From NCBI RefSeq assembly GCF_000959445.1, contig NZ_CP009632.1:806001-870000 (forward strand): 64,000 nucleotides of DNA, written 5' to 3'. Positions 3,271 through 55,962 of this stretch are shown here, piece after piece; within the stretch, counting starts at the first letter, position 1; each line of letters starts with the position of its first letter. The notes under the pieces were generated by a model. The model was not told where the DNA came from. It worked only from the letters and a program-made list of their open reading frames with translations, and ran no database searches. Made by a program: the position numbers and the translations under genes. Source of the DNA: Burkholderia vietnamiensis LMG 10929 (lineage in GTDB: Bacteria > Pseudomonadota > Gammaproteobacteria > Burkholderiales > Burkholderiaceae).

Positions 3271-3433
3271 CGCGCGTCGCCCGCACGTGTCGGCAGCCAC
3301 GCGGCAGACCGAACGCGATCAGCAGACCCACACGCTCCACGCGACCGTTGATCTTCGTCAACGCCTCGGTGTCCACACCCTTCAACGACGGGCGGCGGTC
3401 GATCAATATCGACGTATCGCAACCGGGCTTCAT
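3271..3433 (-). pseudogene. Possible decayed gene fragment
   Basis: An open stretch on the minus strand encodes about 54 residues with protein-like composition, including RVERVGLLIAFGLPRG. This vaguely recalls the C-terminus of GxxExxY-type proteins (VGLLINFNVP). No full gene surrounds it and the frame then runs into sequence antisense to cytochrome b561. I report it as a possible remnant only. An FNR-like palindrome overlaps it on the other strand, so the region may instead be purely regulatory. Confidence 0.22.
3348..3361 (+). promoter_or_regulatory. FNR-type box upstream of the hemerythrin gene
   Basis: TTGATCTTCGTCAA matches TTGAY-N4-RTCAA exactly and lies about 135 bases before the hemerythrin start. 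The -10 candidate at the usual spacing (CAACGA, 3383-3388) is weak, so function is less sure than for other boxes. Confidence 0.45.
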
Positions 3434-3494
3434 GCGCGCAGCCGAAGCGAGCCGCGAGCACGCCGGTCATTCCGTTACCGCTGTGGGGTGTGAA

Positions 3495-4079
3495 ATGTCG
3501 ATGCCCGGGCCACGTAGCGCCGTCGCCATCATCCGCCACGAACATGCGCAGTTGTCGACCGTGATCGACGGCATGCGGCACTTCGTCCGTCTGCTCGTGG
3601 CGGGTGAGCCGGTGCCGGGCGTGATCGTGTTCCGCGCGATGCTCTATTACATCCGGGAATACCCGCAGCGCATTCATCATCCGAACGAAGACCGCTACCT
3701 GTTCGCGCCGTTGCGGGCGCGCACCGGCGAGTTCGACAGCGTGCTCGACCAGCTTGAGGCGCAGCACGACAAGAGCGACATGAAGCTGCGGAATCTCGAG
3801 CACGCGCTGACGCGCTACGAGTTGAAAGGCGCGAGCGCGCTGCATACGCTCGGCGCGCTGATGGACGATTACGCGGAGTTCCATGCGGACCATCGCTGTC
3901 TAGAAGAGACCGTGATCCTGCCGGCCGCCACCCGCGTGTTGACGCCCGACGACTGGGTCGGGATCGACGCGGCGTTCGCCGCGAATCGCGATCCGTTCGA
4001 CGGCCAGCCGCTCGACGAGGATCTCGACCGGCTGTTTTCGATGATCGTCCAGGCGATCCCCGATCGGGCGCCCGATTAG
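3495..4079 (+). CDS. Hemerythrin-like (HHE) domain protein
   Basis: The 194-residue cytoplasmic protein has a hemerythrin cation-binding fold. Candidate diiron ligands are the histidine in IIRHEHAQL, the HHPNED motif, the histidine in EAQHDKSD and the later FHADHRCLEE histidine and glutamate. Such proteins bind oxygen or nitric oxide, or support repair of iron centres. ATG 3495 follows GGGGTG by a short spacer; ATG 3501 and the upstream ATG 3432 are alternatives. It stands alone between the cytochrome genes and a stress protein gene. A second hemerythrin domain occurs 1.2 kb away at the end of the metal ATPase. Confidence 0.85.
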   Translation: MSMPGPRSAVAIIRHEHAQLSTVIDGMRHFVRLLVAGEPVPGVIVFRAMLYYIREYPQRIHHPNEDRYLFAPLRARTGEFDSVLDQLEAQHDKSDMKLRNLEHALTRYELKGASALHTLGALMDDYAEFHADHRCLEETVILPAATRVLTPDDWVGIDAAFAANRDPFDGQPLDEDLDRLFSMIVQAIPDRAPD

Positions 4080-4083
4080 CAGC

Positions 4084-4114
4084 GCGGCCGCCCTTCGGCC
4101 GCTGGAAAGCCAGC
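4084..4114 (+). terminator. GC-rich hairpins after the hemerythrin gene
   Basis: A hairpin with seven-base arms (GCGGCCG, loop CCCTT, CGGCCGC) starts four bases after the hemerythrin stop. A second small stem, GCTGG-AAAG-CCAGC, follows at once. There is no U-tract, so intrinsic termination is only possible. Confidence 0.4.
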
Positions 4115-4145
4115 GGCACGCATTACCCGGCGAACATGAACGCGC

Positions 4146-4159
4146 TTGACGAAGGTCAA
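4146..4159 (+). promoter_or_regulatory. FNR-type box of the tandem Usp gene
   Basis: TTGACGAAGGTCAA lies upstream of the stress protein gene at 4232. A -10-like AACAAT at 4181-4186 is centred 31 bases downstream, as expected for class II activation. Confidence 0.75.
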
Positions 4160-4231
4160 GCCGCGCGCGCCTCGCGTGCGAACAATGGCCGTATGCACGA
4201 TCGCCGGTTGCCACCGGACCGGGAGACCTTC

Positions 4232-5182
4232 ATGAGCGCCAGCAACTCACCCCTCCACCCCCACCACGCGCCCCAACGGGTGCTGATCGCGATCGACGGC
4301 TCCGCCGCGTCCGATCATGCGCTCGCGTATGCGCGTAACCTCATTGCGCCGAATGCGTCGGTGCACGTGGTCAGCGTCGCGGAAAATCCGCGCACACTCG
4401 TTCCGCGTGGATCGAAATCGGCCGCGTTCTTCGAAGCGGCGCGCGACGAATTGCTGCACGACGCCGCCGACGCGCTGTCGCGCGCCACCGGCGCATTGCG
4501 GCGCGACGACATCGCGATCGACAGCGAAGTCATCGACCTGTCCGTGCACGGCGCCGATATCGCCCATGCGCTGGCCGAAACCGCGCAGGCGTGGCGCGCC
4601 GATCTGCTGATCGTCGGCGCGCGTCAGCATCACGGCCTGCTGCGGTGGATCGAAGGCACGGTGTCCGGCCCGCTCGGCCACCTCGCCGGCTGTCCGCTGC
4701 TGATCGTCCCGGAAGGGTTCCAGCCGGCCGCCGAGCATGTGCCGGCGCGCATGCTGTTCGCCGTCGACGGCAGTGCGATCGCCCTCAACGCACTGCGCGC
4801 GGGCCTCAAATTCGCGCGGCCGGACACCGAATTCCGCGTGATCCACGTCGTGGACCGGCCCGTATCGCTGGGCGATTTCGTTCCCGTCGAGACGCTGGAA
4901 CAGGCGTCGATCGACGAAGGCCGCCGCGTACTGCAAAAAGCCGTCGCGCTGTTCGACGGCGCGGCCCGACACGCGCAGTCGCAGCTGATTCAAACCGACC
5001 GCACCGGCGACGACGTATCGCAACGGATCGTGCACGACGCGAGCGGCTGGCATGCCGACATGATCGTGATGGGCACCCACGGACGGCGCGGCGTCACGAG
5101 CTGGGTGCTCGGCAGCGTGGCGCGCCGCGTCGCGCGGATCGCGCCGACGCCGGTCCTGCTCGTGAACGCGCCGCATGCGTAG
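4232..5182 (+). CDS. Tandem universal stress protein
   Basis: This 316-residue cytoplasmic protein consists of two UspA domains, about residues 15-155 and 170-312. The second domain has a complete nucleotide-binding motif, GTHGRRGVTSWVLGS, so it probably binds ATP. The first has the degenerate GARQHHGLLRWIEGT. Proteins of this kind support survival during growth arrest and hypoxia. ATG 4232 is preceded by GGGAGACC. The gene is preceded by a good FNR-type box and is convergent with the metal ATPase gene, whose stop lies only 12 bases away. Confidence 0.92.
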   Translation: MSASNSPLHPHHAPQRVLIAIDGSAASDHALAYARNLIAPNASVHVVSVAENPRTLVPRGSKSAAFFEAARDELLHDAADALSRATGALRRDDIAIDSEVIDLSVHGADIAHALAETAQAWRADLLIVGARQHHGLLRWIEGTVSGPLGHLAGCPLLIVPEGFQPAAEHVPARMLFAVDGSAIALNALRAGLKFARPDTEFRVIHVVDRPVSLGDFVPVETLEQASIDEGRRVLQKAVALFDGAARHAQSQLIQTDRTGDDVSQRIVHDASGWHADMIVMGTHGRRGVTSWVLGSVARRVARIAPTPVLLVNAPHA

Positions 5183-5194: not shown

Positions 5195-7486
5195 TCACAC
5201 GTCCGCGCCCACCGCGTGGAACAGCTCCTCCTCCTGCGCGCAATGTAGGCGGACGATCGCTTCAAGCCCGTACAGCGTCCGTTGGATCGCCTGAGCGCCC
5301 GCGGCGTCGGCGTGTTCGCGCGGCAGATCGGCGACCATCTGCCTGAGCGCCCTGACCATCCGGAAGATCTCGCGGTGCGCGCCGCTCATCGCCGCAAGCG
5401 GATCCTCGCCGCCGAGCAGCGGCGCGAGACGCGCGTAGACGTCGCGGTCGTCCGCGCGCTCGTGCGGCAGCAGCCGCGCGTCCAGCACGCCGATCAGCCG
5501 CGCCGATTCGCTCGCGATGGTCGCGGCCGGCAAGCCGGGGATGCGATCGGCGAGATCCCGCAACTGGTCGAGCAGCGGCGACAACGCGGCGTGCTCGCGC
5601 TTGAGCTGCTCGACGTCGAGGCCGCTCGGCCGCGCCTCCGACGGCTTCGCGCGGACCAGCAACACGCGCAGCGCATTGACGATCACGACGACGTCGATCA
5701 CCTCCTGAATCACCGCGCCCGCAATCGGCGGCAGTAATCCGGCCGCCGCGACCGCCATCGCGAGCGCCGACAACGACATGCCGGCCACCACGCTCTCGAG
5801 CGCGATGCGGCGCGCGCGGCGCGCAATGCGGATCGCGTCCACGAGGCGGTCGAGCCGGTCGACCAGCAGCACCACGTCGGCGGCCTCGGACGACGCGGCC
5901 GCGCCACGCGCGCCCATCGCGATGCCGACGTCGGCGGCCGCGAGCGCCGGCGCGTCGTTCACGCCGTCGCCGACCATGATCGTCACGCCGTCCTTGCGAG
6001 CCGACTGGATCGCGGCGAGCTTGTCCGTCGGCGTTTGCTCGGCGCGCACGTCGGTCACGCCGAGCAGTTCGCCGACCGCCAGCGCGATATCGCGCCGGTC
6101 GCCGGTCAGCATCACGAGGCGCTCGACGCCTTCGCGCTTGAGTAGCCGCAATGCGCGCGGCGTCTCGAGCCGCAGTTCGTCGGCCAGCTCGATCGCGCCG
6201 ATCATCGCGCCATCCACGCCGACGAATACCGCCGCGCCGCCCTGGCCGCCGACGCGCGCGACGAACGCATCGCTCCACGGCGCCGGCGTCGAGCACGCCG
6301 CGACGAAACTAAACTTGCCGATCGTGACCGTGTGACCGTCGACGCTGCCCGTCACGCCTTCGCCGGGCGTCTCCAGTACGGCCGACGGCGCCGACAGACC
6401 GACGCCGCGCTCCCGTGCGGCAACCGTCAGCGCGTCCGAAATCACGTGCGCCGACGCCTGTGCGAGCGACGCCGCGAAGCGCAGCACGTCGGCGGCGGCG
6501 ACCTGCGCGCCGCATTCGATCGCGACGATGCGTGCGCGCCCGCCGGTCAGCGTGCCGGTCTTGTCGAAGAACAGAATCGTCGCTTGCGCGAGGCGTTCCA
6601 GCGCGCCGCCGCCCTTGACCAGCACGCCGCGCTTCGAGCAGCGCGACATGCCCGACACGATCGCGACCGGCACCGCGAGAATCAGCGGACACGGCGACGC
6701 GACGACGAGCACCGCGAGCGCGCGGCCGACGTCGCCGGTCGCGAGCCACGCGCCGCCCGCGACGAGCAGCGCAATCACGACGAAGCCCGCCGCGTAGCGA
6801 TCCGCGACGCGCACGGACGGGCTGCGCTCGCGCTGCGCGCGCTCGACCATCCGTACGATGCCGGCAAACGTGCTGTCGCCGGCGGTCGTGCGCGCCACCA
6901 TTTCGAACGGCGCGCCGGCGTTGACCACGCCGCTGCATGCGGTTTCGCCCGAACGTCGCCGCTGCGTGGACGATTCGCCGGTCAGCATCGATTCGTCCAG
7001 TTCCGCGTCGCCGGTGAGTGTGCCGTCGACCGCGACGCACTCGCCGCTGCGCACCAGCAGCCGGTCGCCGGGGACGATCGCACCCGGAGCGACGGGCCGC
7101 CATTCGCCATGCTCGAACCGCGTCGCCTGCCGCGGCGCGCGGCCGAGCAGCGCGGTCATCTCGCGTTGCGCGCGGCGCTGCGCGTGCTGCTCCAGCGTCC
7201 GCCCGCTCGCGAGCATCAATGCGATGACCGCGGCGGTCAGCGTCTCGTCGAGCGCGAGCGCGAGCCCGATCGCGAGCCACGCGAGCACGTCGATGCCGGG
7301 CTGCCGGCGCGCGACCGCCTTGGCGACGGTGACCGTCAACGCGAGCAGCACGGGCAGCGCGCCGAGCAGCCACACGAGGCGCGCGAGCGCAGGCAGGCCG
7401 AACGCGACGCACGCGCCGCCGGCGGCGAGCGTGACGGCAGACAGAACCAGCAACGTGAAATCGAGCGACCAGCGCATTCGGGGCAT
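5195..7486 (-). CDS. P1B-type metal ATPase fused to a hemerythrin domain
   Basis: This 763-residue membrane pump should export or import a transition metal using ATP. Visible motifs are TGES at 169-172 (actuator), SPCP at 264-267 in the metal-binding helix, DKTGT at 308-312 (phosphorylated aspartate) and GDGVNDAP. No N-terminal CXXC metal-binding domain is present. Roughly the last 150 residues form a hemerythrin-like four-helix domain (EHAAL, LPHERADD, HREIF, LHCAQEEE). This architecture matches the P1B-5 group, where studied members handle nickel and iron. ATG 7486 follows a GGAAAA ribosome site. It is divergent from the gene at 7704 and has its own FNR-type box. Confidence 0.92.
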   Translation of the reverse strand: MPRMRWSLDFTLLVLSAVTLAAGGACVAFGLPALARLVWLLGALPVLLALTVTVAKAVARRQPGIDVLAWLAIGLALALDETLTAAVIALMLASGRTLEQHAQRRAQREMTALLGRAPRQATRFEHGEWRPVAPGAIVPGDRLLVRSGECVAVDGTLTGDAELDESMLTGESSTQRRRSGETACSGVVNAGAPFEMVARTTAGDSTFAGIVRMVERAQRERSPSVRVADRYAAGFVVIALLVAGGAWLATGDVGRALAVLVVASPCPLILAVPVAIVSGMSRCSKRGVLVKGGGALERLAQATILFFDKTGTLTGGRARIVAIECGAQVAAADVLRFAASLAQASAHVISDALTVAARERGVGLSAPSAVLETPGEGVTGSVDGHTVTIGKFSFVAACSTPAPWSDAFVARVGGQGGAAVFVGVDGAMIGAIELADELRLETPRALRLLKREGVERLVMLTGDRRDIALAVGELLGVTDVRAEQTPTDKLAAIQSARKDGVTIMVGDGVNDAPALAAADVGIAMGARGAAASSEAADVVLLVDRLDRLVDAIRIARRARRIALESVVAGMSLSALAMAVAAAGLLPPIAGAVIQEVIDVVVIVNALRVLLVRAKPSEARPSGLDVEQLKREHAALSPLLDQLRDLADRIPGLPAATIASESARLIGVLDARLLPHERADDRDVYARLAPLLGGEDPLAAMSGAHREIFRMVRALRQMVADLPREHADAAGAQAIQRTLYGLEAIVRLHCAQEEELFHAVGADV

Positions 7487-7583
7487 GACGAGTTTTCCTG
7501 TTGCCGCGCGTGGGCCCGAGCGTTGCGTCGGGCGCCGTTGACGACGGCGTGGCATCAGTCTAGAAAATGCCGCGCTTCGACCG

Positions 7584-7597
7584 TTGACGTGGGTCAG
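7584..7597 (-). promoter_or_regulatory. FNR-type box of the metal ATPase gene
   Basis: TTGACGTGGGTCAG has one base off the palindrome. Reading towards the ATPase, a -10-like TAGACT occupies 7562-7557, centred 31 bases from the box centre. Confidence 0.7.
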
Positions 7598-7627: not shown

Positions 7628-7641
7628 TTGACGTGAGTCAA
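7628..7641 (+). promoter_or_regulatory. FNR-type box of the 7704 gene
   Basis: TTGACGTGAGTCAA is a full match. A -10-like CACAAT at 7663-7668 is centred 31 bases downstream, giving a class II layout for the membrane protein gene. Confidence 0.75.
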
Positions 7642-7703
7642 CGGCGCGGCCCGTCTCTTCAGCACAATCGAAACGTGACACCGGATGGTCTGGAGCCGAT
7701 ATC

Positions 7704-8321
7704 GTGCTGACGCTGGCTGTGCTGTTCCTGCTGATTCTGCTGCTGAATCTCGTGCCGGCATTCGCGCCGCCCACCTGGATGGCGATGTCGTGGGTGGGCT
7801 TCAACCTGCCCGACGGCAATCCGTTCGTGTTCGCCGTCGTCGCGGCGGCCGCGGCCACCACCGGCCGCGTGATCCTCGCGACCTTCGCGCGCTCGCTGGT
7901 GCGCTCGCGCTGGGTGCGGGACGCCGATCGCGAGAACATCGCCGTGGCGACGCGCTGGCTGCGCAAGCACGGCACGCTCACCGCCGGGGCGTTCTTCCTC
8001 TATGCGCTGAGCCCGCTGCCGTCGAACTATCTGTTCATCGCATACGGGCTGTCCGGCTTGCCGCTCAGGATCATCGCCGCGGCGTTCTTCATCGGCCGCG
8101 TGACGACCTATGCGATCTGGGCGCACGTCGGCCGCTTCGCGTCCACGCAGCTCGACGCCGAGTCCGAACTCGGCGGCAGCTATCTCGGCGGCTACTTCAT
8201 CGTCACGCAGCTCGTGCTGCTCGCATGCATCGTCGTGTTGATGAAGCTCGACTGGCACGCGCTCGTCCACGAACGTCGATTGACGTTCCGGCGCGGCCAG
8301 CGCGTGCGCCGCTCCGATTGA
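7704..8321 (+). CDS. Membrane protein, possibly VTT/DedA-like
   Basis: The 205-residue protein starts at GTG and has about five hydrophobic segments. The central stretch ALSPLPSNYLFIAYGLSGLP, followed by IIAAAFFIGRV, recalls the core loop of SNARE-associated/VTT (DedA-type) proteins, which move lipids across membranes. This assignment is tentative because the usual N-terminal re-entrant loop is not obvious. The gene stands alone behind its own FNR-type box and is divergent from the hemerythrin-tailed ATPase. The C-terminus is basic and cytoplasmic-looking. Confidence 0.7.
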   Translation: MLTLAVLFLLILLLNLVPAFAPPTWMAMSWVGFNLPDGNPFVFAVVAAAAATTGRVILATFARSLVRSRWVRDADRENIAVATRWLRKHGTLTAGAFFLYALSPLPSNYLFIAYGLSGLPLRIIAAAFFIGRVTTYAIWAHVGRFASTQLDAESELGGSYLGGYFIVTQLVLLACIVVLMKLDWHALVHERRLTFRRGQRVRRSD

Positions 8322-14310: not shown

Positions 14311-14363
14311 AAGCGGCGTGTCACCGTTCGGCGGCGAGCTGACGGTCATACACTCGTGCCGCC

Positions 14364-14377
14364 TTGACGCACGTCAA
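14364..14377. promoter_or_regulatory. FNR-type box in the SHP divergent region
   Basis: TTGACGCACGTCAA is a full palindromic match. No convincing -10 lies at the class II distance in either direction, so it may act as an upstream or repressing site for the SHP operon. Confidence 0.5.
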
Positions 14378-14482: not shown

Positions 14483-14496
14483 TTGACCTGCATCAA
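14483..14496 (+). promoter_or_regulatory. FNR-type box of the 14591 gene
   Basis: TTGACCTGCATCAA is a full match. A CAGCAT hexamer at 14518-14523 is centred 31 bases downstream, leaving about 60 bases of leader before the gene at 14591. Confidence 0.65.
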
Positions 14497-14590
14497 GCCG
14501 GCACGCGCGTTCCGCGTCAGCATGGACGCGCTACCGTTTGCTCCGCACGTGCACGGCCGATGCGGCAGCCCAATCCCCGAGGAGACTTCG

Positions 14591-15064
14591 ATGCGATCGA
14601 GACCTTTCGTTGTACTGCTTGCGTGGCTGGCATTGCTGGTCGGACAGGTAGCGCCTGCCGCTGCGAACGACCTGACGCGCAGCGTGACGTCCGGCGACAT
14701 TGCCGTCAACTTCGGCGTGGTGCCGGCGAATCAGACTGCCGCAGCGGGCGGCAGCGCCGCCGACGCGTCGTCGAACGTGAACCTGTATCTGCTGACCGTC
14801 GCGCTGTTCGACCGGTCGACCGGCAAGCGCATCGAAAACGCGCACATCACGGCCGTAGTGAAGGGCCCGCGCAGCGAAGCCAGCTCGTTTCATACGAAGC
14901 CGAAGCAGATGCAGCTCGAACCGGCGCGGGACGGCAATGCGGTCACGTACGGGCACGTGTTCGACGCACGCTGGAAAGGCATCTATCACATCGACCTCGC
15001 GATTACGCGAGACGGCTCGACGCATGTCGAGCATGTCCGCCTGAACTACGACCAGCAGTTCTGA
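14591..15064 (+). CDS. Secreted protein of unknown function
   Basis: This 157-residue periplasmic protein has a signal peptide ending near PAAAND (about residue 24). The mature part looks like a single beta-sandwich (NVNLYLLTVALFDRSTGKRIENAHITAVVKGP and so on). This resembles FixH/YtkA-type or other small Ig-like periplasmic domains, but I cannot assign a family. Histidines and methionines near residues 100-110 (FHTKPKQMQLEP) could bind metal. GAGGAG precedes ATG 14591. It has its own FNR-type box. Confidence 0.75.
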   Translation: MRSRPFVVLLAWLALLVGQVAPAAANDLTRSVTSGDIAVNFGVVPANQTAAAGGSAADASSNVNLYLLTVALFDRSTGKRIENAHITAVVKGPRSEASSFHTKPKQMQLEPARDGNAVTYGHVFDARWKGIYHIDLAITRDGSTHVEHVRLNYDQQF

Positions 15065-42369: not shown

Positions 42370-42513
42370 CTACGCGTCAAATCCCTGCGCGTTCAAAGCC
42401 GCAGCGCCCCCAAGAGGCAGCGCGCGATGCGCCGCCTCCAAGGTCACCATGTTGAATGCGTCGCGGCTTTTTGCATCCGTCCGAATATGCGCTATCCACT
42501 TTCTGATGCTCAT
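42370..42513 (-). CDS. Possible small ORF (47 residues)
   Basis: A short frame on the minus strand begins MSIRKWIAHIRTDAKSRD and ends in NAQGFDA. It closes six bases before the start of the membrane-anchored gene and has a weak ribosome site (TTGGAACG). It could be a small protein cotranscribed with that gene or the tail of a truncated gene; an in-frame stop eight codons upstream of its ATG limits it. Confidence 0.35.
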   Translation of the reverse strand: MSIRKWIAHIRTDAKSRDAFNMVTLEAAHRALPLGGAAALNAQGFDA

Positions 42514-42653
42514 CGTTCCAACGCCATGCCTGGTTTAGAAAGCCAGTGCCATCGGTTTGATTTGAGGGGGCGTGGCTGTGGTTTGGGCTTGCATTGTCGA
42601 CGATTCAGATTTCGTTGTCGAACGGCCGATTCTGGCCGCCTGTTGCCGCAGAG

Positions 42654-43109: not shown

Positions 43110-43316
43110 GTTCGTGTGCGGAATAGGTATGACGTGCCAAGATTGTCACCGATCGCGGAGCCTGTGTCGAAGGGCCGTTCCTGGCCGACCTGTGACCGAC
43201 GACGCCGTCGCACCGTGCCCGGTCCGGCGGACGGCCCGCGTCGACCCGGAGCGGTCCTTCGGATTTCTCGAAACCGGTCATTGGGGCAGCGCTAGACCGC
43301 CGCCACTTTAGACAAT

Positions 43317-43679
43317 CTAATCGCCTTGGTTGCCCTGCCAGTCGATATACGCGGCGGTACCCATTGCGTCGAAGTTCGGCATTTCACCGACCTGAACGTG
43401 CTGGAAAAAGCCCAAGCAACGGCCCCAAGACGACATTCCCGGGTTGGGCTCGACCCAGCACGAATATCCAAAGCGCGTCCAATCCAACGACCTATCGTCA
43501 TTGCAGCGGCATAGAAGCTCCTGGGCGATTGCCCTGCACCAAATCAAAGCTTCTTCTGCCGCCGCCGCTTTGATGAAGACTCCAGTCGTCGACTCGTAGT
43601 CTTCGATCACTCCGCGGTCGAATAGCTGTCGCGGTTCGGGCTCGTGGTACTGGAAAATGACAAGGTATTCGTGTGACAT
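43317..43679 (-). CDS. Orphan hypothetical protein, immunity-like
   Basis: The 120-residue acidic cytoplasmic protein begins MSHEYLVIFQYHEPEP and contains many aromatic residues and a helical EEALIWCRAIAQELLC segment. I cannot assign a family. Its small size, acidity and position next to another orphan gene of the same strand suggest an immunity protein of a contact-dependent or secreted toxin. No clear ribosome site is visible upstream of ATG 43679. Confidence 0.55.
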   Translation of the reverse strand: MSHEYLVIFQYHEPEPRQLFDRGVIEDYESTTGVFIKAAAAEEALIWCRAIAQELLCRCNDDRSLDWTRFGYSCWVEPNPGMSSWGRCLGFFQHVQVGEMPNFDAMGTAAYIDWQGNQGD

Positions 43680-43882
43680 GTTGCAGGAGCTTGTTTAACG
43701 ACTTCATAGTTTCGTCCGTCACGCCGGTTCTAGACGATCTTGGCGGAAACATCGGACGACCGGTAGTGCCCGAACTGAGTCAGCCAACCCGCCACTGCCC
43801 GTTTAGTCCGGTCCAAGCGCTTTCGGCATACCGCCCTACGACCCGGCGCAAGCACCGGCTCGTATCGCACCCAGCCCCACCC

Positions 43883-44923
43883 TCAACTAACCTCAATAAT
43901 CACCTTCAACGCATGCGTTTGCGCCGCGCGCCCGAACGTGTCGTAAGCGTCCTCGACATCATCGAGCGCGAACCGGTGCGTAATGAGTTGCGCCGGATCG
44001 AGACGCCCCGCCCGCACCGTTTTCAGCAGCATCGGCGTGCTGACCGTATCAACGAGCCGCGTCGTGATCGCGATGTTGCGATCCCACAGCTTCTCCAGAT
44101 GCAGATCGGCCTTGACGCCATGCACGCCCACGTTCGCCACGACGCCGCCCGGCGCCACGATCGACGTGCACAGCTCGAACGTCGCCGGAATGCCGACCGC
44201 CTCGATCGCGCAATCCACGCCGATGCCGTCGGTCAGCTTCATCACGTCCGCCGCCGCGTCGCCGCTGCGGCCGTCGACGCAGTCGGTCGCACCGAAGCGC
44301 CGCGCGATGTCGAGCCGGTTGCTGTCCGGGTCGATCATGATGATCTGCCCCGGCGAATAGAACTGCGCCGTCAGCAGCGCGGCAAGCCCGATCGGCCCGG
44401 CGCCCACGATCGCCACCGAGCAGCCCGGCTGCACCTTGCCGTTCAGCACGCCGCACTCGAAGCCGGTCGGCAGGATGTCGGACAGCATCACGAGCGCGTC
44501 CTCGTCGGCGCCGGCCGGGATCGGATAGAGGCTCGTCTGCGCATGCGGAATGCGCACGTACTCGGCCTGCGTGCCGTCGATCCGGTTGCCGAGAATCCAG
44601 CCCCCGGTGGTGCAGTGCGAATATAGGCCGCGCCGGCAGTATTCGCAGCGGCCGCACGACGAAATGCAGGAAATCAGCACGCGGTCGCCCGGCTTCAGCG
44701 CATCGACCGCAGCGCCAACCTGCTCGACGACCCCCACCCCTTCGTGGCCGAGCACGCGCCCCGGTTCGCAGGTCGGCACGTCGCCTTTCAGGATGTGCAG
44801 GTCGGTGCCGCAGATCGTCGTGCGCGTCACGCGGACGATCGCATCGGTCGGCGACTGCAGCTCGGGTTTCGGACGTTGTTCGAGCGCCATGCGCCCAGGG
44901 CCGTGATAGACGAGTGCTTTCAT
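43883..44923 (-). CDS. Zn-dependent alcohol dehydrogenase
   Basis: The 346-residue medium-chain dehydrogenase has catalytic zinc ligands in TTICGTDLH and GHEGVG, and the structural zinc cysteines in SCGRCEYCRRGLYSHC. The cofactor-binding motif is VGAGPIGLAA. It resembles secondary alcohol or 2,3-butanediol-type dehydrogenases. It could regenerate NAD during anaerobic metabolism. GGAGG precedes the ATG. It lies 19 bases after the PHA synthase gene, so it is the last gene of that operon. Confidence 0.92.
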   Translation of the reverse strand: MKALVYHGPGRMALEQRPKPELQSPTDAIVRVTRTTICGTDLHILKGDVPTCEPGRVLGHEGVGVVEQVGAAVDALKPGDRVLISCISSCGRCEYCRRGLYSHCTTGGWILGNRIDGTQAEYVRIPHAQTSLYPIPAGADEDALVMLSDILPTGFECGVLNGKVQPGCSVAIVGAGPIGLAALLTAQFYSPGQIIMIDPDSNRLDIARRFGATDCVDGRSGDAAADVMKLTDGIGVDCAIEAVGIPATFELCTSIVAPGGVVANVGVHGVKADLHLEKLWDRNIAITTRLVDTVSTPMLLKTVRAGRLDPAQLITHRFALDDVEDAYDTFGRAAQTHALKVIIEVS

Positions 44924-44942
44924 CGGTATTCCTCCATGGAAA

Positions 44943-46757
44943 TCAGGTTTCTAGCACGTATGCGCCAGGCGCCGCCGCGAAGCCGGCGGCTGGCACGCGA
45001 GCCGGCACGTCGCCCGACGAATGCGTGCGCAACCAGCCGCTCCAGCAGGTCCACCACGAACCTTCTACGGGCGGCGTGTCGCGCACGAAGTCGTGCCCGC
45101 TGCGGTAAGGCGCGCCGTGCTCGCGCGTCGCGCAGCGGTAGTGGCGGCCGGGATGGCCCGGTTCGGACACGATGCCGGCGTTGTGGCCGCCCGACGTCAG
45201 CACGAACGTCAGCGCGTGGTGCGTCATCAGATGGAGCTTGTACACGGAACGCCACGGCGACACGTGATCGCGTTCGGTGCCCACCACGAACGTCGGCACG
45301 TCGAGATCCGACAGCGCGACCGGCCGCCCGTCGACGCAGTAGCGGCCGGCCGCGAGATCGTTGTCGAGAAAGAGCCGCGTCAGGTATTCGGTATGCATCC
45401 GGTACGGCATGCGCGTGGTGTCGGCGTTCCACGACATCAGGTCGTTCGGCTTGGTGCGCGTGCCGAGCAGGTATTCGCTCATCATGCGCGACCAGATCAG
45501 GTCGCGTGCATTCAGCAACTGGAACGTCGCGGCCATCTGCGCGCCGTCCAGATAGCCCTGCCGCCACATCAGCGCATCGAGCGCGGACAGCTCGCTCGCA
45601 TCGATGAACAGCCCCAGCTCGCCGGGTTCGCTGAAATCGGTCTGCGCAGCCAGCAACGACACCGAGCGCAATGCCTCGTGTTGCCGGCCGTCACGCGCGA
45701 GCGCGGCCGCGGCGATCGCGAGCAGCGTGCCGCCGAGGCAATAGCCGACCGCATGCACGGCCTCGCCGCAGATCGACCGCGCGGCGTCGAGCGCAGCCAT
45801 GCAGCCGTCGCGCAGATAATCGTCGAGCCCGAGCCCGCGCGCTTCGGCGCCGGGGTTGTGCCACGACACGGCGAACACCGTGTAGCCGGAATCGACCAGG
45901 AAGCGGATCAGCGAATTGTGCGGCTGCAGATCGAGGATGTAGTACTTCATGATCCACGACGGCACGATCAGGATCGGCTCGCGTGCGACGTCGGTGGTCG
46001 TCGGGTCGTATTGCAGCAGCTCGCACAACGCGTTGCGCCACACGACGCGGCCCGGCGTGACCGCGACGTCGCGGCCCGGCAGATAGGGACGCGCATCGTG
46101 CGCGCGCTGCTCGCCGGTGTGCTCGAACAACGCGCGCGCGTCGTCGGCCCAGTGCCGCAGACCAGTCGCCAGATTCGCCCCGCCGCTGCGCATCGTAGTG
46201 TCGAGCACGACCGGATTGGTCGCGAGAAAGTTACCGGGCGAGCACGCATCGAGCCACTGCCGCGCGGCGAACCCGACCAGCTCCTCGTGATGGCGCTCGA
46301 CGCCCGGCACGCCGGTGGTCGCGTCGCGCCACCAGCGCTGAATCGCCAGGAAATTGTCGCGATAGACGTGAAACGGCCAGGCGTCCCACGCGGGCGCGGC
46401 GAACCGCGGATCGGCGTCGCCCGCGTGCACGGCCAGGCCGCCGGGGTCGGCCGCAGCGGCGTCGCGCACCTGCGACGACGGCGCGACGGCCGCCTGCCAC
46501 GCCTGTGCCGCAAGCTCGAAGCACTTGCCGGGCGCGACCGCGAGATGCGCGCCCCAGTCGAGCATCGCGAGCGCCATCGACACCGGAGACAGGCCGAGCG
46601 TCAGCGCGGCCACGTTCGCGTGCGCCGCGCGATTCCATTGTTCGGCCGGCGTCGCATCGGCCGGCGCAGTGGCGAGCGCACACGGCGCCGGTTCGTTCGG
46701 CTGCGGCAGCCGTATCGCTTCCTGCGCGAGCGGCGCGCGCATCGCGGGTGCATTCAT
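44943..46757 (-). CDS. phaC: Poly(3-hydroxyalkanoate) synthase
   Basis: The 604-residue enzyme polymerises 3-hydroxyacyl-CoA into storage polyester. The nucleophile is C340 in the lipase-like box GYCLGG, and the catalytic histidine lies in SGGHNAG. The N-terminal domain includes PFHVYRDNFLAIQRWW. It fits class I synthases. The C-terminal tail after about residue 545 is enriched in tryptophan and glycine. It follows acetoacetyl-CoA reductase by 133 bases and precedes the alcohol dehydrogenase. No thiolase gene is in the window, so acetoacetyl-CoA must come from elsewhere. Confidence 0.93.
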   Translation of the reverse strand: MNAPAMRAPLAQEAIRLPQPNEPAPCALATAPADATPAEQWNRAAHANVAALTLGLSPVSMALAMLDWGAHLAVAPGKCFELAAQAWQAAVAPSSQVRDAAAADPGGLAVHAGDADPRFAAPAWDAWPFHVYRDNFLAIQRWWRDATTGVPGVERHHEELVGFAARQWLDACSPGNFLATNPVVLDTTMRSGGANLATGLRHWADDARALFEHTGEQRAHDARPYLPGRDVAVTPGRVVWRNALCELLQYDPTTTDVAREPILIVPSWIMKYYILDLQPHNSLIRFLVDSGYTVFAVSWHNPGAEARGLGLDDYLRDGCMAALDAARSICGEAVHAVGYCLGGTLLAIAAAALARDGRQHEALRSVSLLAAQTDFSEPGELGLFIDASELSALDALMWRQGYLDGAQMAATFQLLNARDLIWSRMMSEYLLGTRTKPNDLMSWNADTTRMPYRMHTEYLTRLFLDNDLAAGRYCVDGRPVALSDLDVPTFVVGTERDHVSPWRSVYKLHLMTHHALTFVLTSGGHNAGIVSEPGHPGRHYRCATREHGAPYRSGHDFVRDTPPVEGSWWTCWSGWLRTHSSGDVPARVPAAGFAAAPGAYVLET

Positions 46758-48264: not shown

Positions 48265-48278
48265 TTGATCTGAGTCAA
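48265..48278. promoter_or_regulatory. FNR-type box between the PHA operon and the Usp gene
   Basis: TTGATCTGAGTCAA is a full match. Towards the stress protein gene a TAGACT -10 at 48300-48305 is centred exactly 31 bases away. Towards the PHA operon no good -10 lies at that distance. Confidence 0.75.
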
Positions 48279-48345
48279 GCACGCGGAAAGCCCGCTCCGT
48301 AGACTGGATTGCACTGGCGGATCACCCGTCGATGGAGCGATTCCG

Positions 48346-49193: not shown

Positions 49194-50393
49194 ATGCGCA
49201 CGCTTGCGTTGCTGGTCGTCAACGCCGGTTCGTCGAGCGTGAAGTTCGCGCTCTTCGCGTATCCACCACACGGCGATCCCGCACGGCGGCCGCTGCACGA
49301 CGGCGAGGCGGTCGCGGCCGGCAACGGCATCGCGATCCGCTTCGACGCCGATCGGGACGGCACGCTGCCGCTCGGCGCCGGCGACCCGTACCGCGCCGTG
49401 CTGGCGCAGGTCGCGATGTGGATCCGCGTACGCTTGCCGCACGTCACGCTCGCCGCGATCGCGCATCGCGTCGTGCACGGCGGCGCGCGCTTCGCGGAGC
49501 CGGTGATCGTTGACAACGACGTGCTGGACGCGCTGCGCACGCTGACGCCGCTCGCACCGCTGCATCAGCCGCACAGCCTCGACGCGATCGACGCGCTGCG
49601 CGATGCGTTCCCCGGCGTGCCGCAAGTCGCCGTGTTCGACACGGCGTTTCATCGCACGCTGCCGCGCACCGAGCAGCTTCTGCCGTTGCCGCACGAATGG
49701 TTCGACCGCGGCGTGCGCCGCTACGGGTTCCATGGGCTGTCGTACGAATATCTGTCCGTCGCGCTCGACGAAGCGTTCGGCGCGCAGGCGCACGGGCGCG
49801 TCATTGCGGCGCACCTCGGCAGCGGCGCGAGCCTGTGCGCGATGCGCGACTGCCGCAGCGTCGCGACGACGATGGGCTTCTCCGCGCTCGACGGGCTGAT
49901 GATGAGCACGCGCTGCGGCACGCTCGACCCCGGCGTCGTGCTGCACCTGCTCGACGCCGGCCAGTTGTCCGGCGACGCGCTCGGTCAGCTGCTCTATCAC
50001 GAGTCGGGCCTCAAGGGCGTGTCGGGCGCATCCGGCGATCCGCGCGTGCTGCTCGCATGCGAGGCGGCCGGCGACGCGCGGGCGCACGACGCGCTCGCGC
50101 TGTACGTCCACCGGATCGTGCGCGAGGTCGGCGCACTCACCGCGCTGCTCGGCGGGCTCGACATGCTGGTTTTCACGGCCGGCATCGGCGAACACGCGGC
50201 GGTGCTGCGCGAGCGGATCTGCGCGGCGCTCGGCTGGCTCGGCGTCGAGCTGGACACGCGCGCGAATGCGGCCCATGCGCAGGTGGTGTCGACGGCGGCG
50301 AGCGCGGTCACGGTCGTGGTCGAGCCGACCAACGAGGCGTGGGTCGCGGCGCGCGCGGCGGTGCGCGTGCTGCGCGGCAATCGCGACGGTTGA
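49194..50393 (+). CDS. ackA: Acetate kinase
   Basis: This 399-residue cytoplasmic kinase interconverts acetyl phosphate and ADP with acetate and ATP. Signatures are LVVNAGSSSVKF at the N-terminus, HRVVHGG, VFDTAFH, GFHGLSYEY, HLGSGAS and FTAGIGEH. No phosphotransacetylase or phosphoketolase gene is in the window to supply acetyl phosphate. It is cotranscribed with the stress protein upstream. Substrate-level ATP formation fits anoxic survival. Confidence 0.95.
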   Translation: MRTLALLVVNAGSSSVKFALFAYPPHGDPARRPLHDGEAVAAGNGIAIRFDADRDGTLPLGAGDPYRAVLAQVAMWIRVRLPHVTLAAIAHRVVHGGARFAEPVIVDNDVLDALRTLTPLAPLHQPHSLDAIDALRDAFPGVPQVAVFDTAFHRTLPRTEQLLPLPHEWFDRGVRRYGFHGLSYEYLSVALDEAFGAQAHGRVIAAHLGSGASLCAMRDCRSVATTMGFSALDGLMMSTRCGTLDPGVVLHLLDAGQLSGDALGQLLYHESGLKGVSGASGDPRVLLACEAAGDARAHDALALYVHRIVREVGALTALLGGLDMLVFTAGIGEHAAVLRERICAALGWLGVELDTRANAAHAQVVSTAASAVTVVVEPTNEAWVAARAAVRVLRGNRDG

Positions 50394-50403
50394 TCCAGAT
50401 CAG
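50390..50403 (+). promoter_or_regulatory. FNR-type box of the 50463 Usp operon
   Basis: TTGATCCAGATCAG overlaps the last codon of ackA and has one base off the palindrome. GATGAT at 50425-50430 is centred 31 bases downstream. Confidence 0.7.
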
Positions 50404-50462
50404 CGCGACCGGCGTGCATGCGCCGATGATGATTGCATCGATCTCCGTTCAAGGAAAACGCC

Positions 50463-51856: not shown

Positions 51857-52327
51857 TCACAGCATGCCGGCGCCCGCACCCGGCCCTTCCCGTACCACCA
51901 GCACCGGCCGGTCCGCGTCGCGCAGCAATGCTTCCGCGACGCTGCCGAGCACCGCCCGACGCACGCCGCGACGGCCGTGCGTGCCCATCACGATCAGATC
52001 CGCATCGCATTCGGCGGCCGCGCGCGCCAACACGTCCGAGATGTCCTGGCCGTTCGCTTCGACCGTTTGCGCGATGCCGCGCACGCCGGACAGCTGAAAC
52101 GCCGTTTCGGCGTCCGCGACCGCGATGGCGGCCTTGTCCGCATCCAGCCCGGCCGGGTCGCGCTGCTCGACATAGCCGCTGTCGACGTCGGTCAGCCGCG
52201 GCGCATCCGACACCACGCACATCGCGATGACGAGGCCGCCCGACTCGCGCGCGAGCGAAATCGCCTCGTCGAGCGCGAGCCGCGAGCCGCGGCTGCCGTC
52301 GAGCGCCGCGAAAATTCTTCGATACAT
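51857..52327 (-). CDS. Single-domain universal stress protein
   Basis: The 156-residue UspA-domain protein starts FAALDGSRGSRLAL and has the complete loop GTHGRRGVRRAVLGS, so it should bind ATP. It resembles the gene at 50463 in the loop but has a different middle section. It stands alone, convergent with the tandem Usp gene, behind an FNR-type box with a CAGACT -10. Confidence 0.93.
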   Translation of the reverse strand: MYRRIFAALDGSRGSRLALDEAISLARESGGLVIAMCVVSDAPRLTDVDSGYVEQRDPAGLDADKAAIAVADAETAFQLSGVRGIAQTVEANGQDISDVLARAAAECDADLIVMGTHGRRGVRRAVLGSVAEALLRDADRPVLVVREGPGAGAGML

Positions 52328-52398
52328 GGTGCCTCCCTGCCGTCATGCGGGTTCGATGGATTCGTGAAGCCAGTCTGATCGCGGCCGGCGGCGAGCGA

Positions 52399-52412
52399 TT
52401 GACGCCGGTCAA
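52399..52412 (-). promoter_or_regulatory. FNR-type box of the 51857 Usp gene
   Basis: TTGACGCCGGTCAA is a full palindromic match. Reading towards the stress protein gene, CAGACT at 52377-52372 is centred 31 bases away. Confidence 0.75.
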
Positions 52413-52415
52413 GCA

Positions 52416-52435
52416 GATACGGCGGCGCCCGTATC
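52416..52435. repeat. Inverted repeat next to the FNR-type box
   Basis: Seven-base arms GATACGG and CCGTATC surround a six-base spacer, starting four bases after the FNR-type box. It could be a second regulator site or a small hairpin. Confidence 0.4.
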
Positions 52436-52680
52436 CGTCGGTCCCGATTGGCGAACGTCACCGTGACGCGCATAATTCCGACGACATCGCAGTTCCGGAC
52501 GGTGGCGCGTATCGTGCCACGCGCCGCCAGCCCGCCGACGACCCGCTCCGTCAGGATGAACGGCAATGACAGTGAATCCCCGCGCCTTCAGGGCCGGACC
52601 GGTTATGCCCGGTGCCCGGCCCGCCCGACGTGCCGCGACGGCCGCGCCGCGGACGCTCGCAGCGCGCCATCTTCCAAGCA

Positions 52681-52718
52681 CGTGCCGCCTCGCCGCTGCC
52701 GTATCGGGAGGCGGCACG
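52681..52718. ncRNA. Hairpin with 11-base perfect arms, possible RNA element
   Basis: Arms CGTGCCGCCTC (52681-52691) and GAGGCGGCACG (52708-52718) enclose a 16-base loop. It lies in the long leader of the NarL-type regulator gene. A structured leader, small-RNA end or attenuator is possible; nothing more specific can be read. Confidence 0.35.
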
Positions 52719-52939
52719 CGTGCTTCCGTGTTACCGCCCGTCGGGCCGCGATCCGGGGCCGCATCACGCCGCCGGTTCGTGAGTCTCGCTTCGGATGGAC
52801 GGCGCGAAATTGTCCACATCGGCACTTCGCAGCCGGGCGATGCGCCCGACGCCCGGTCAATGCGGCGGCTGCCGCGCACGGCGCGAACGCGCCCGGCGGC
52901 GCCGGCCGCAAACGATATCCGGCAGGAGGACGCGCCGAC

Positions 52940-53587
52940 ATGATCACGGTACTCATCGCCGACGACCACGCCCTCGTCAGGGACGGCCTGCGGCACATCC
53001 TGAAGAACGCCAGCGACTTCGAGGTGGTCGGCGAAGCGCGGGACAGCGCGTCGACGATCGCGCTGGTGCGCGACCGCGACGCGGACGTGCTCGTGCTCGA
53101 CCTGTCGATGCCCGGCCGCAACGGCGTCGAACTCATCAAGCAGATCAAGGACGAGAAGCCGGCGCTGCATATCCTGGTGCTGACGATGCACGCGGAGCAG
53201 CAATACGCGGTGCGCGCGTTCCGCGCGGGCGCGGCCGGCTACATGACGAAGGAAAGCGCGAGCGCCGAACTGGTCGCGGCGCTGACCAAGATCGCGGCCG
53301 GCGGCGTCTACGTGAGCCTGACGATGGCCGAGCAGTTCGCGCAGAGCCTGAACGAGCCGACCGATCTGCTGCCGCACCAGCGCCTGTCGGACCGCGAATT
53401 CGACGTGTTCCGGCGCGTGACGACCGGCGAGTCGATTTCCGAAATCGCGCACGCGCTCAACGTCAGCGTGAAGACGGTCAGCACCTACAAGATGCGGATC
53501 CTCGAGAAGATGCAGATGGCGAACGACACGGCGCTCGTGCGCTATGCGATGCGCCACAAGCTGTTCGACGACCCCGACGAACTCTGA
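52940..53587 (+). CDS. NarL/FixJ-family response regulator
   Basis: The 215-residue regulator has a receiver domain with acidic residues 8-9, phosphoacceptor D54, T82 and K104, then a LuxR-type helix-turn-helix (LSDREFDVFRRVTTGESISEIAHALNVS and on). It belongs to the group with DosR, FixJ and NarL. No partner kinase is in the window, so it is an orphan here. AGGAGG lies ten bases before ATG 52940. It follows a 612-base gap with structured elements and precedes the FNR homologue. Confidence 0.93.
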   Translation: MITVLIADDHALVRDGLRHILKNASDFEVVGEARDSASTIALVRDRDADVLVLDLSMPGRNGVELIKQIKDEKPALHILVLTMHAEQQYAVRAFRAGAAGYMTKESASAELVAALTKIAAGGVYVSLTMAEQFAQSLNEPTDLLPHQRLSDREFDVFRRVTTGESISEIAHALNVSVKTVSTYKMRILEKMQMANDTALVRYAMRHKLFDDPDEL

Positions 53588-53701: not shown

Positions 53702-53746
53702 AGGCTTCCATCTCGCCTACCGCAACTTCAATTCCGGCTGATTTCC

Positions 53747-53760
53747 TTGACGTCGCGCAA
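53747..53760 (+). promoter_or_regulatory. Weak FNR-like site upstream of the FNR gene
   Basis: TTGACGTCGCGCAA has one good half-site and a degenerate second half. No convincing -10 lies at the class II distance. It might serve autoregulation of the FNR homologue. Confidence 0.3.
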
Positions 53761-53968
53761 CATCCATACTCCATTTCAACAAAAACACCGAACGTGCCTC
53801 GCGGAGCATGGGCGGCATCGAGGAGACCGGCGTAGCGGTCTCCCGGCGCGCCGGACGCGTCAGCGAGGCGTCCCCACAGGAAGGCGGCAGAAACCAAGGC
53901 CGCCGGTACAACGGTCAGCGCGAGTCCGCCCGATGGCGGGCCGACGCTGCCCCCAACTGGAGCCGATC

Positions 53969-54742
53969 ATGCAAACCATTGCGAATGTTGCGACGAACCT
54001 GCCGTCCCGCCCGTTCATCCCGCTGCACCGCGTCGAGCCTGCCGACCAGCCGAAGCGCGCCACGTCCCGCTGCTCGTCGTGCGCATTGCGCACCGTATGC
54101 ATGCCGGCCGACCTGTCGACCGAAGAATTCGCACGCATCGACGCGATGATCTGCACGACGCGCAACGTCAAGCGCGGCGAGACGCTGTTCCGCGCCGGCG
54201 ACGCGTTCAACAGCATCTATGCGGTGAGAACCGGGTCGTTCAAGACGATCGTCATGCATCGCGACGGCGACGAGCAGATCACCGGCTTCCAGATCGTCGG
54301 CGAATCGCTGGGGCTCGACGGCCTACACGCGGGGCAGCACAACGGCGACGCGATCGCGCTCGAAGACAGCACGGTCTGCATCATCCCGTTCGGCCAGCTC
54401 GAGCAGATGTGCCGCGAAGTCCGGCCGATGCAGCACCACCTGTACCAGATGATGAGCGGCGAAATCGTCCGCGAATCGTCGCAGATGCTGCTGCTCGGCA
54501 CGATGAGCGCCGAACAGCGCGTGGCCGCGTTCCTGCTGAACCTGTCGGCCCGCTTCAAGGCGCGCGGCTACTCGGCCGCCGAATTCGTGCTGCGGATGAC
54601 GCGCGACGAGATCGGCGAATATCTCGGGATGAAGCTCGAGACCGTCAGCCGCATGCTGTCGAAGTTCCAGCACAAGGGGCTCGTCGCCGCGCAAGGCAAG
54701 CAGATCCGGATCGTCGATTCGGAAGGCCTCGGGCAAATCTGA
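53969..54742 (+). CDS. fnr: FNR-type oxygen-sensing transcription regulator
   Basis: The 257-residue Crp/Fnr-family protein has C35, C38, C44 and C137 in exactly the spacing of the four [4Fe-4S] ligands of E. coli FNR (C20, C23, C29, C122). A cyclic-nucleotide-binding-type fold, a dimer helix and a helix-turn-helix follow. The recognition helix has E224, S227 and R228, matching the FNR residues that read TTGAT. It should bind DNA when oxygen is low. It is the obvious candidate for the regulator of the many TTGAY-N4-RTCAA boxes in this window. GGAG lies seven bases before the ATG. Confidence 0.95.
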   Translation: MQTIANVATNLPSRPFIPLHRVEPADQPKRATSRCSSCALRTVCMPADLSTEEFARIDAMICTTRNVKRGETLFRAGDAFNSIYAVRTGSFKTIVMHRDGDEQITGFQIVGESLGLDGLHAGQHNGDAIALEDSTVCIIPFGQLEQMCREVRPMQHHLYQMMSGEIVRESSQMLLLGTMSAEQRVAAFLLNLSARFKARGYSAAEFVLRMTRDEIGEYLGMKLETVSRMLSKFQHKGLVAAQGKQIRIVDSEGLGQI

Positions 54743-54867
54743 GCGCGCGGCGCCAAACGGATCCACGAGGATCCCAACGGCGCCGAACCACTCGGAGCGG
54801 ACCGAAACGGCGCGCGCGGCGCCGTTCAACCAATCGGCCCACTCAGCCCATTCGGCCACTCAACCGC

Positions 54868-55857
54868 TCACCCGCCCATCCCGAGCACGGCCGCGCCCGA
54901 CACGCGGCCGGCGCGCAGATCGTCGAGCGCGCGGTTCGCATCGGTCAATGCATAGCGCACGGCCTCGACGCGCAGCGGCATCGCGTCGGCGAGCCGCATG
55001 AATTCCACCGCATCCGCACGCGTGAGGTTCGCCACCGACGCGATCCGGCGCTCGCCCCACAGCCACGCGTACGGAAAGCTGGGGATGTCGCTCATGTGAA
55101 TGCCGCCGCACACGACGATCCCGCCCTTGTCCACCGCGCGCAGTGCTGCCGGCACCAGCGCGCCGACCGGCGCGAAGATCAGCGCGGCATCGAGCGGCTC
55201 GGGCGGCATTTCGTCGCTGCCGCCGGCCCACACCGCGCCGAGCGACAGCGCGAGCTGCTGCGCTGCGGCATCGCCGGGGCGCGTCAACGCGAACACCTTG
55301 CGTCCTTCGAAAAACGCGACCTGCGCGACCAGATGGGCGGCCGCCCCGAAGCCGTAGATGCCGATGCGCTGCGCGTTGCCGGCCATGCGCAGCGTGCGGT
55401 AGCCGATCAGCCCGGCGCAGAGCAGCGGCGCGGCTTCGAGGTCGGAATAGCGCCGCGGCAGATGCACGCAATAGCGATGGTCGGCCACGGTGCGTTCCGC
55501 ATAGCCGCCGTCGATCGTATAGCCGGTGAAGCCGGGGCTGTCGCACAGGTTTTCGCGGCCGGACGCGCAATACGCGCAGTGTCCGCACGTCGCGCCGAGC
55601 CAGGGCACGCCCACGCGATCGCCGACGGCGAAGCCCGTGACGCCCGCGCCCAGCGCGCGCACCGTGCCGACGATCTCGTGCCCGGGAATCAGCGGCCGCT
55701 TCGGATGCGCGAGCTCGCCGTCGACCACATGCAGATCGGTCCGGCATACGCCGCACGCATGGACGTCGATCAGCAACTGGCCGGCTGCGGGCACCGGGTC
55801 GGGCACGCGCGCCTCGCGCAGCGTGGGCGTCGTGCCGTCGAACATCATCGCAAGCAT
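54868..55857 (-). CDS. Zn-dependent alcohol dehydrogenase (AdhA-like)
   Basis: This 329-residue medium-chain dehydrogenase has the catalytic zinc motifs ACGVCRTDLH and GHEIVG. Structural zinc cysteines lie in CGHCAYCASGRENLC, and the nucleotide-binding turn is YGFGAAAH. It differs clearly from the dehydrogenase at 43883 and lacks the longer N-terminus. It probably converts ethanol or related alcohols and aldehydes. GGAGAAAAGC precedes the ATG. It is convergent with the FNR gene and divergent from the nitroreductase gene, with an FNR-type box between. Confidence 0.92.
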   Translation of the reverse strand: MLAMMFDGTTPTLREARVPDPVPAAGQLLIDVHACGVCRTDLHVVDGELAHPKRPLIPGHEIVGTVRALGAGVTGFAVGDRVGVPWLGATCGHCAYCASGRENLCDSPGFTGYTIDGGYAERTVADHRYCVHLPRRYSDLEAAPLLCAGLIGYRTLRMAGNAQRIGIYGFGAAAHLVAQVAFFEGRKVFALTRPGDAAAQQLALSLGAVWAGGSDEMPPEPLDAALIFAPVGALVPAALRAVDKGGIVVCGGIHMSDIPSFPYAWLWGERRIASVANLTRADAVEFMRLADAMPLRVEAVRYALTDANRALDDLRAGRVSGAAVLGMGG

Positions 55858-55948
55858 GCTTTTCTCCTTCGCGCGAATCGCTTTCGCGCGCTTCGTGTTG
55901 CAACGCTAATCGCAGCGCAGCCGGTCTGCACGGCGTGGTGACGCGCGC

Positions 55949-55962
55949 TTGACGTGGGTCAA
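55949..55962. promoter_or_regulatory. FNR-type box of the nitroreductase operon
   Basis: TTGACGTGGGTCAA is a full match. CACGAT at 55984-55989 is centred 31 bases downstream on the plus side. It lies 92 bases from the divergent alcohol dehydrogenase start and might serve that gene too. Confidence 0.72.

Follow-up and report, generated by a model that had tools for sequence, protein, structure and literature searches.

FNR-type boxes at a fixed distance from -10-like hexamers in the low-oxygen-activated locus of Burkholderia vietnamiensis LMG 10929

Do the FNR-type boxes found along 64,000 bp of Burkholderia vietnamiensis LMG 10929 (NZ_CP009632.1, positions 806,001 to 870,000; this whole stretch is the window, in whose coordinates positions are given) belong to one low-oxygen regulon, and which regulator reads them? 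The initial annotation had noted about twenty TTGAY-N4-RTCAA palindromes or variants between 3.3 and 56 kb and, together with an FNR homologue in the same region, took them for one autonomous oxygen-controlled island. Very probably, the window carries the low-oxygen-activated (lxa) island, where a -10-like hexamer follows most boxes at a distance of 21 bases and Anr proteins are likely to switch on transcription at low oxygen as class II activators. Boxes and gene content were seen here, as were the conservation and spacing of the boxes; low-oxygen induction is taken from papers on B. cenocepacia J2315, and the action of Anr is what we infer from both.

A dense array of boxes in the lxa locus

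The window has 14 exact copies of the motif TTGAYNNNNRTCAA. Sites with at most one mismatch number 20, compared with 1.66 ± 1.33 in 100 shuffled sequences (largest value 5), which confirms the number of boxes first proposed. Thirteen of the 14 exact sites are intergenic though 82.8% of the window is coding by our own gene calls (P = 1.3 × 10−9). Among the six one-mismatch sites, the one at 49209 is coding and the one at 50390 overlaps a gene end by 4 bases. The interval 3348–55962 takes in 18 of the 20 boxes, with 486 and 57416 lying outside. Genome-wide (6.93 Mb, four contigs; the window is 806001–870000 of contig C4) there are 56 exact sites and seven in a backwards-read control. The window makes up 0.92% of the genome, yet holds 14 of the 56 (27-fold, P = 1 × 10−16).

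Seven further exact boxes lie at 72,714–85,570, within 22 kb to the right of the window, so that one 85-kb stretch carries 21 of the 56 sites of the genome. Thus the boxes proposed for 3.3–56 kb are there, but the array does not end at 56 kb. An equal motif density elsewhere on the replicon had been named as the result that would speak against a regulon. Few exact sites were found there: among the matches listed, the rest of C4 outside the 85-kb array has six in approximately 1.16 Mb, a comparison that takes the whole replicon, coding and intergenic DNA together.

The region at 59–64 kb, in which no box had been noticed, is indeed boxless, but it is not an edge of the island. The SulP gene (59,017–60,774) ends the gene run starting at box 55949. 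Nine of ten relatives have the DNA behind it joined directly to what is coordinate 71,932 here; B. lata has the two parts separated. Between about 60,774 and 71,932, strain LMG 10929 carries an insertion of about 11 kb that is missing at that place in the ten relatives and has no exact box, and the array resumes beyond it. We therefore rejected an island edge at 59 kb. The part of the insertion (60,775 to about 71,932, running into L085) that lies in the window encodes a GGDEF protein and carries LysR-like and SnoaL-like genes, the last two named by eye.

The gene order of the window is that of the published lxa table, BCAM0275A–BCAM0323 (order compared by eye; Pfam domains on our own gene calls), which covers B. 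cenocepacia J2315, B. contaminans and B. multivorans (PMC4981469). The shared order runs from a sensor kinase and regulator, cytochrome b561, a universal stress protein (USP), a cation ATPase, PfkB, NrdJ and an FtsH-like peptidase through a BON-domain protein, two exporters, a beta-CASP protein, an alcohol dehydrogenase, PhaC and PhbB to USPs with acetate kinase, a response regulator, a CRP-family regulator, a nitroreductase, cytochrome c, a 'lysine decarboxylase' and a sulphate transporter. In a sequence comparison, 44 of 57 window genes matched the locus of B. cenocepacia NCTC13227; this is the strain that was aligned, and the likeness to J2315 rests on names and order. The predicted masses of four USPs are within 400 Da of the published values. 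Clearly, this is the lxa locus that has been published for the Burkholderia cepacia complex. Low-oxygen induction of this locus and of its FNR protein, BCAM0287, has been reported for J2315, and an FNR-box-like motif was described at many low-oxygen genes (PMC4505428). Since locus, FNR protein and motif are in print, the system itself is already known, and what is added here is a map of predicted switches.

With the published lxa loci the window shares gene content and order, the internal CRP/FNR regulator, the theme of six USPs and the FNR-box-like motif. It differs in lying on a 1.25-Mb replicon, in the insertion of about 11 kb and in lacking, at this locus, the sensor kinase and phosphotransacetylase of a relative. 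A parallel between lxa and the DosR regulon of Mycobacterium tuberculosis, which has a similar hypoxia-survival content (USPs, alpha-crystallin, phosphofructokinase), has already been drawn (PMC6127331). DosR belongs to a different regulator class and the two regulons are analogues by function alone. The DosR box also differs from the lxa box. The Anr/FNR regulons of Pseudomonas and Escherichia coli use the same TTGAY-N4-RTCAA box and a Cys-cluster regulator, and their boxes stand at the class II distance as well. Unlike them, the island packs many targets into one 85-kb array in a genome with several Anr paralogues.

A fixed distance between box and -10-like hexamer

To either side of each box, we counted NANNNT at offsets 0 to 49. 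At offset 21 the hexamer is present for 17 of the 21 exact boxes of the array compared with 1.06 expected (P = 4 × 10−19), and at any other offset for at most three of the 21. Scoring the adjacent DNA with a -10 matrix gave one peak, again at offset 21. In the ten relatives, 125 of 152 boxes have NANNNT at this offset, and the best other offset in any single relative reached 6/22. The same spacing was found for 22 of 26 boxes at eight nrdJ loci outside Burkholderia (L032, L034–L040), namely in Paraburkholderia, Pandoraea, Ralstonia, Achromobacter and an unplaced member of the Burkholderiaceae, hinting at lxa-like loci beyond the genus. A locus from a metagenome-assembled Burkholderiaceae genome (L033), a Magnetococcales locus and four Thermoplasmata loci have no exact box and were excluded from this score. 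The joint pattern of box and -10 hexamer occurs 29 times genome-wide and never in the backwards control; the array accounts for 17 of the 29, and the window for 11 of these 17 (the doubtful site 486 counted).

At class II promoters FNR is positioned approximately 41 bases before the transcriptional start. An offset of 21 therefore places the box centre about 40–41 bases ahead of the expected start and keeps its distance from the predicted -10 region constant, which is the geometry of class II FNR promoters. The spacing thereby predicts transcriptional starts, and the side on which the hexamer lies gives most boxes a direction and a putative target gene. A literature search found no paper describing this spacing in lxa; Sass 2013, the primary lxa paper, was outside that search. 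It is the fixed spacing and the directional map that go beyond the known system.

The boxes are also conserved. Ten exact boxes could be compared with relatives, in which 77 of their 84 orthologous positions are exact (15 boxes were anchored; 3348 and 14483 were dropped because of too few genomes, and 486 and 14364 were not anchored, leaving 10 of 14 exact boxes). Mean column conservation was 0.95 in the half-sites, 0.84 in the spacer and 0.77 in the flanks (13 boxes, three of them with one mismatch; ten relatives). Half-sites differed from flanks with P = 5 × 10−23 and from the spacer with P = 3 × 10−6, the columns not being independent. At the pfkB/nrdJ box and at 52399 the half-sites are kept and the spacer varies; at 27736 the spacer is fixed too. 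The relatives were chosen for encoding nrdJ, a choice that favours carriers of the island.

As listed in Table 1, most operons have a box, as had been proposed for nearly every transcription unit. The statement fails for the response regulator gene g47 (no box of at most one mismatch within 450 bp in any of ten genomes), for the island FNR gene g48 (0/11 genomes) and mostly for the zinc alcohol dehydrogenase gene g38 (2/11 genomes). In B. contaminans, the response regulator changes 1.7- to 1.9-fold between isolates and the adjacent USPs more than 20-fold in two media (PMC4981469); a little-changed regulator without box beside rising USPs fits the box map.

Two assignments were revised. Box 22485 was not retained as the nrdJ promoter, as its hexamer faces pfkB and nrdJ has a separate, weaker site. 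Likewise, box 7628 was not retained as the metal-ATPase promoter, the ATPase side being served by 7557–7597. Besides its hexamer toward g42, box 48265 has NANNNT at offset 22 on the other side, facing the polyhydroxyalkanoate (PHA) run g41–g39.

Table 1. Boxes, candidate promoters and regulator genes of the window
Feature	Position	Strand	Conservation or basis
Exact box within histidine-kinase gene g01; unlikely to belong to the regulon	486–499		Coding; not conserved in B. cenocepacia NCTC13227
FNR box between g04 and hemerythrin gene g05	3348–3361		No offset-21 hexamer on either side; only 2 genomes comparable
Box and -10 AACAAT facing USP gene g06 (4280–5182)	4146–4186	+	Box in 5/5 genomes, with -10 in 3/5
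One-mismatch box and -10 TAGACT facing cation ATPase g07 (5195–7477)	7557–7597	-	5/5 genomes; Pfam
Box and -10 CACAAT facing membrane protein g08 (7704–8321; weak VTT match below cut-off)	7628–7668	+	5/5 genomes
Exact box (14364); offset-21 hexamer TCAGCT fails NANNNT; >450 bp from cytochrome gene g15	14337–14377	-	Not anchored in conservation comparison
Box and -10 CAGCAT facing g16 (14684–15064)	14483–14523	+	3/3 genomes
Box and -10 GACGCT facing g18 (17696–18175)	18272–18312	-	7/7 genomes
Box (22485) and -10 TATGGT facing pfkB g22 (21458–22393)	22458–22498	-	9/9 genomes; Pfam PfkB
Two-mismatch asymmetric box TTGCGCTCGATCAA and -10 TACAGT facing nrdJ g23 (22589–24385)	22521–22561	+	Box of ≤2 mismatches with NANNNT in 15/19 loci
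Box (27736) and -10 GATGCT facing BON g26, g25 and FtsH-like g24 (24474–27643)	27709–27749	-	9/10 genomes; Pfam
One-mismatch box before exporter 1 (g27–g30, 28111–34569); GATATA at offset 21, no NANNNT	27939–27952	+	Same GTGAY form in 5/5 relatives
Box and -10 GATCAT facing g31 and exporter 2 (g32–g35, 34936–39335)	34600–34640	+	10/10 genomes; Pfam
Exact box ahead of beta-CASP gene g37, lacking an offset-21 hexamer	39946–39959	+	Exact in 6/10 relatives
One-mismatch box and near -10 TGTAAT facing beta-CASP g37 (40106–41551)	40027–40067	+	CTGAYTTC form in 9/10 relatives; TGTAAT fails NANNNT
Box and -10 TAGACT facing USP g42, acetate kinase g43	48265–48305	+	11/11 genomes toward g42
One-mismatch box and -10 GATGAT facing USPs g44, g45	50390–50430	+	11/11 genomes
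Box (52399) and -10 CAGACT facing USP g46 (51857–52327)	52372–52412	-	11/11 genomes
Boxless LuxR-type response regulator g47 (BCAM0288 by published order)	52940–53587	+	Published order, Pfam
FNR/Anr-type regulator g48 (BCAM0287 by published order)	53969–54742	+	CX2CX5C cluster, cNMP fold, Crp helix-turn-helix with LETVSR
Box and -10 CACGAT facing nitroreductase g50 and run to SulP g54 (56034–60774)	55949–55989	+	11/11 genomes; Pfam

Several observations weigh against the idea that Anr proteins switch on the island through boxes of this spacing. Four exact boxes of the array (3348, 14364, 39946 and 75775) have no NANNNT at offset 21, and the conserved one-mismatch boxes of exporter 1 and the beta-CASP gene lack it too. 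No offset-21 hexamer points toward the PHA run at g41 (0/10 genomes), the alcohol dehydrogenase g49 (0/11) or g19 (0/10). BCAM0299, the counterpart of g38 and unboxed in 9/11 genomes, rises up to 108-fold, and in the same isolate comparison the boxed BCAM0284–0285 rise at most 6.5-fold (PMC4981469; these fold changes compare isolate with isolate, not oxygen levels), so box and response are not one to one. Finally, the anr double mutant of strain H111, which lacks lxa, cannot survive anoxia (PMC9104464); Anr therefore does more than lxa.

The regulator that reads the boxes

The FNR homologue reported for the region is present. The product of g48 has an N-terminal CX2CX5C cluster, a cNMP-like fold and a Crp helix-turn-helix with an LETVSR helix, and it belongs to the FNR/Anr group. 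Upstream of its gene lies a two-mismatch element, TTGACGNCGCGCAA (about 53,747–53,760), found at a similar distance in 6/11 genomes and without offset-21 hexamer; it is possibly a weak site. In the whole genome, four of ten Crp/Fnr-type matches above the Pfam cut-off have both the CX2CX5C cluster and the LETVSR helix, and hence the box alone cannot name the acting regulator. Twelve of the 29 joint promoters lie outside the array, so the island is a dense cluster within a wider Anr regulon. Ten genes behind these outside promoters match the ATP synthase gamma, zinc alcohol dehydrogenase, CBS, helix-hairpin-helix, GGDEF, LemA, glycosyltransferase, nitronate monooxygenase, USP and DUF1488 families; two of the 12 sites (L095, L098) gave no convincing gene. 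Accordingly, sites are not confined to the island, and in none of 11 genomes is its regulator gene preceded by a box of at most one mismatch. In outline, one low-oxygen regulon stands: the elements have the position, conservation and promoter spacing of FNR/Anr sites, and the locus is a published low-oxygen regulon. The word 'autonomous' is not supported, given the four Anr paralogues, the outside promoters and an FNR gene without close box in 11 genomes.

A protein at least 79% identical to the island FNR is encoded in all 22 genomes with island-type nrdJ and in 14 genomes without it. The median number of boxes per genome was 43.5 in the 22 genomes with both, 31.5 in the 14 with the FNR only and 23 in 29 without the FNR (65 genomes of the genus; one-sided P = 1 × 10−5, relatedness not corrected). 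Genomes with a partial or second-type nrdJ (e.g. G082, G033, G045 and G072) were scored as being without island nrdJ. Five of the 29 genomes without the FNR have 42–68 boxes, which means that other loci also add boxes.

It is conceivable, although we do not favour it, that a resident Anr outside the island, of the BCAM0049/FixK type and under FixLJ, is the main reader and the island FNR a minor one. BCAM0049 is the most strongly induced of three in J2315, 77-fold vs 17-fold (PMC4505428), fixK depends on FixLJ in B. dolosa (PMC5234846), and the anoxic defect of the H111 mutant points the same way. Against this stands the presence of the island FNR in 22/22 genomes with island-type nrdJ, which suggests a role in the island.

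The same co-occurrence would also suit a self-contained island, in which the internal FNR would be the sole reader of the island boxes, leaving the rest of the genome to the other Anr proteins. In addition, half-sites of the array are TTGAC-rich (31/42 vs 25/70 elsewhere, P = 2 × 10−4). We nevertheless regard such an island as unlikely: the LETVSR helix is common to the four paralogues, joint promoters are found elsewhere, the FNR gene has no close box, and such an FNR occurs in 14 genomes that lack island-type nrdJ. Moreover, the genus counts show higher numbers of all three box types where the island is present, so a private box dialect is no more than a lead. It is weak as proof of a private regulator, also because TTGAT-N4-ATCAA, absent from the array, accounts for 19 of the 152 boxes in the islands of the ten relatives.

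That the boxes are chance palindromes in GC-rich DNA is next to impossible and was rejected, being contradicted by shuffles, backwards control, conservation and fixed -10 spacing, even if two coding sites would suit it, the one-mismatch site 49209 and the exact site 486, whose membership we doubt despite its offset-21 hexamer since it is not kept in the one relative aligned. We return to Anr proteins switching on the lxa island as class II activators, and the island's own Anr copy likely acts together with the other paralogues.

Local gene content and meaning of the array

The genes at this locus differ in places from those of relatives. At 52,412–52,940 a PAS/CHASE histidine kinase gene is missing: B. 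pseudomultivorans has a 673-aa frame (L049:11390–13408) between the USP gene g46 and the regulator gene g47, and BCC1644 has only a 246-aa frame at this position. The response regulator g47 looks orphaned. At 44,890–44,943 the phosphotransacetylase gene is missing and acetate kinase is kept; B. pseudomultivorans has PTA_PTB at L049:2841–3902. Between the beta-CASP gene g37 and g38 lie 2.3 kb of low-GC DNA (41,548–43,886; 58%) with only small open frames. The cation-transporting ATPase (5195–7477) carries a C-terminal hemerythrin domain (residues 622–754), which may give this pump a tail that binds oxygen or iron.

Published work links lxa with the persistence of B. cenocepacia under anoxia and with a protein abundance that rises in chronic lung infection. 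The Anr proteins are predicted to hold an oxygen-labile iron-sulphur cluster, which would stay intact as oxygen falls; an Anr dimer would then bind the box at about -41 and help RNA polymerase. The induced genes may help the cell to persist without oxygen, among them those for universal stress proteins, the FtsH-like protease and the NrdJ-type ribonucleotide reductase, as well as PHA enzymes, acetate kinase, alcohol dehydrogenases and exporters. A bolder reading, which we put forward with little confidence, is that lxa is a portable regulon with its own dialect: about twenty TTGAC-rich class II promoters would move together with an Anr paralogue, and the array would also use the resident Anr pool. 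If so, a genome acquiring the island would gain anoxic persistence in one step. The fixed distance between box and -10 hexamer predicts starts and directions for most operons and parts likely promoters from chance boxes; with this map, one can test directly which Anr paralogue drives the island.

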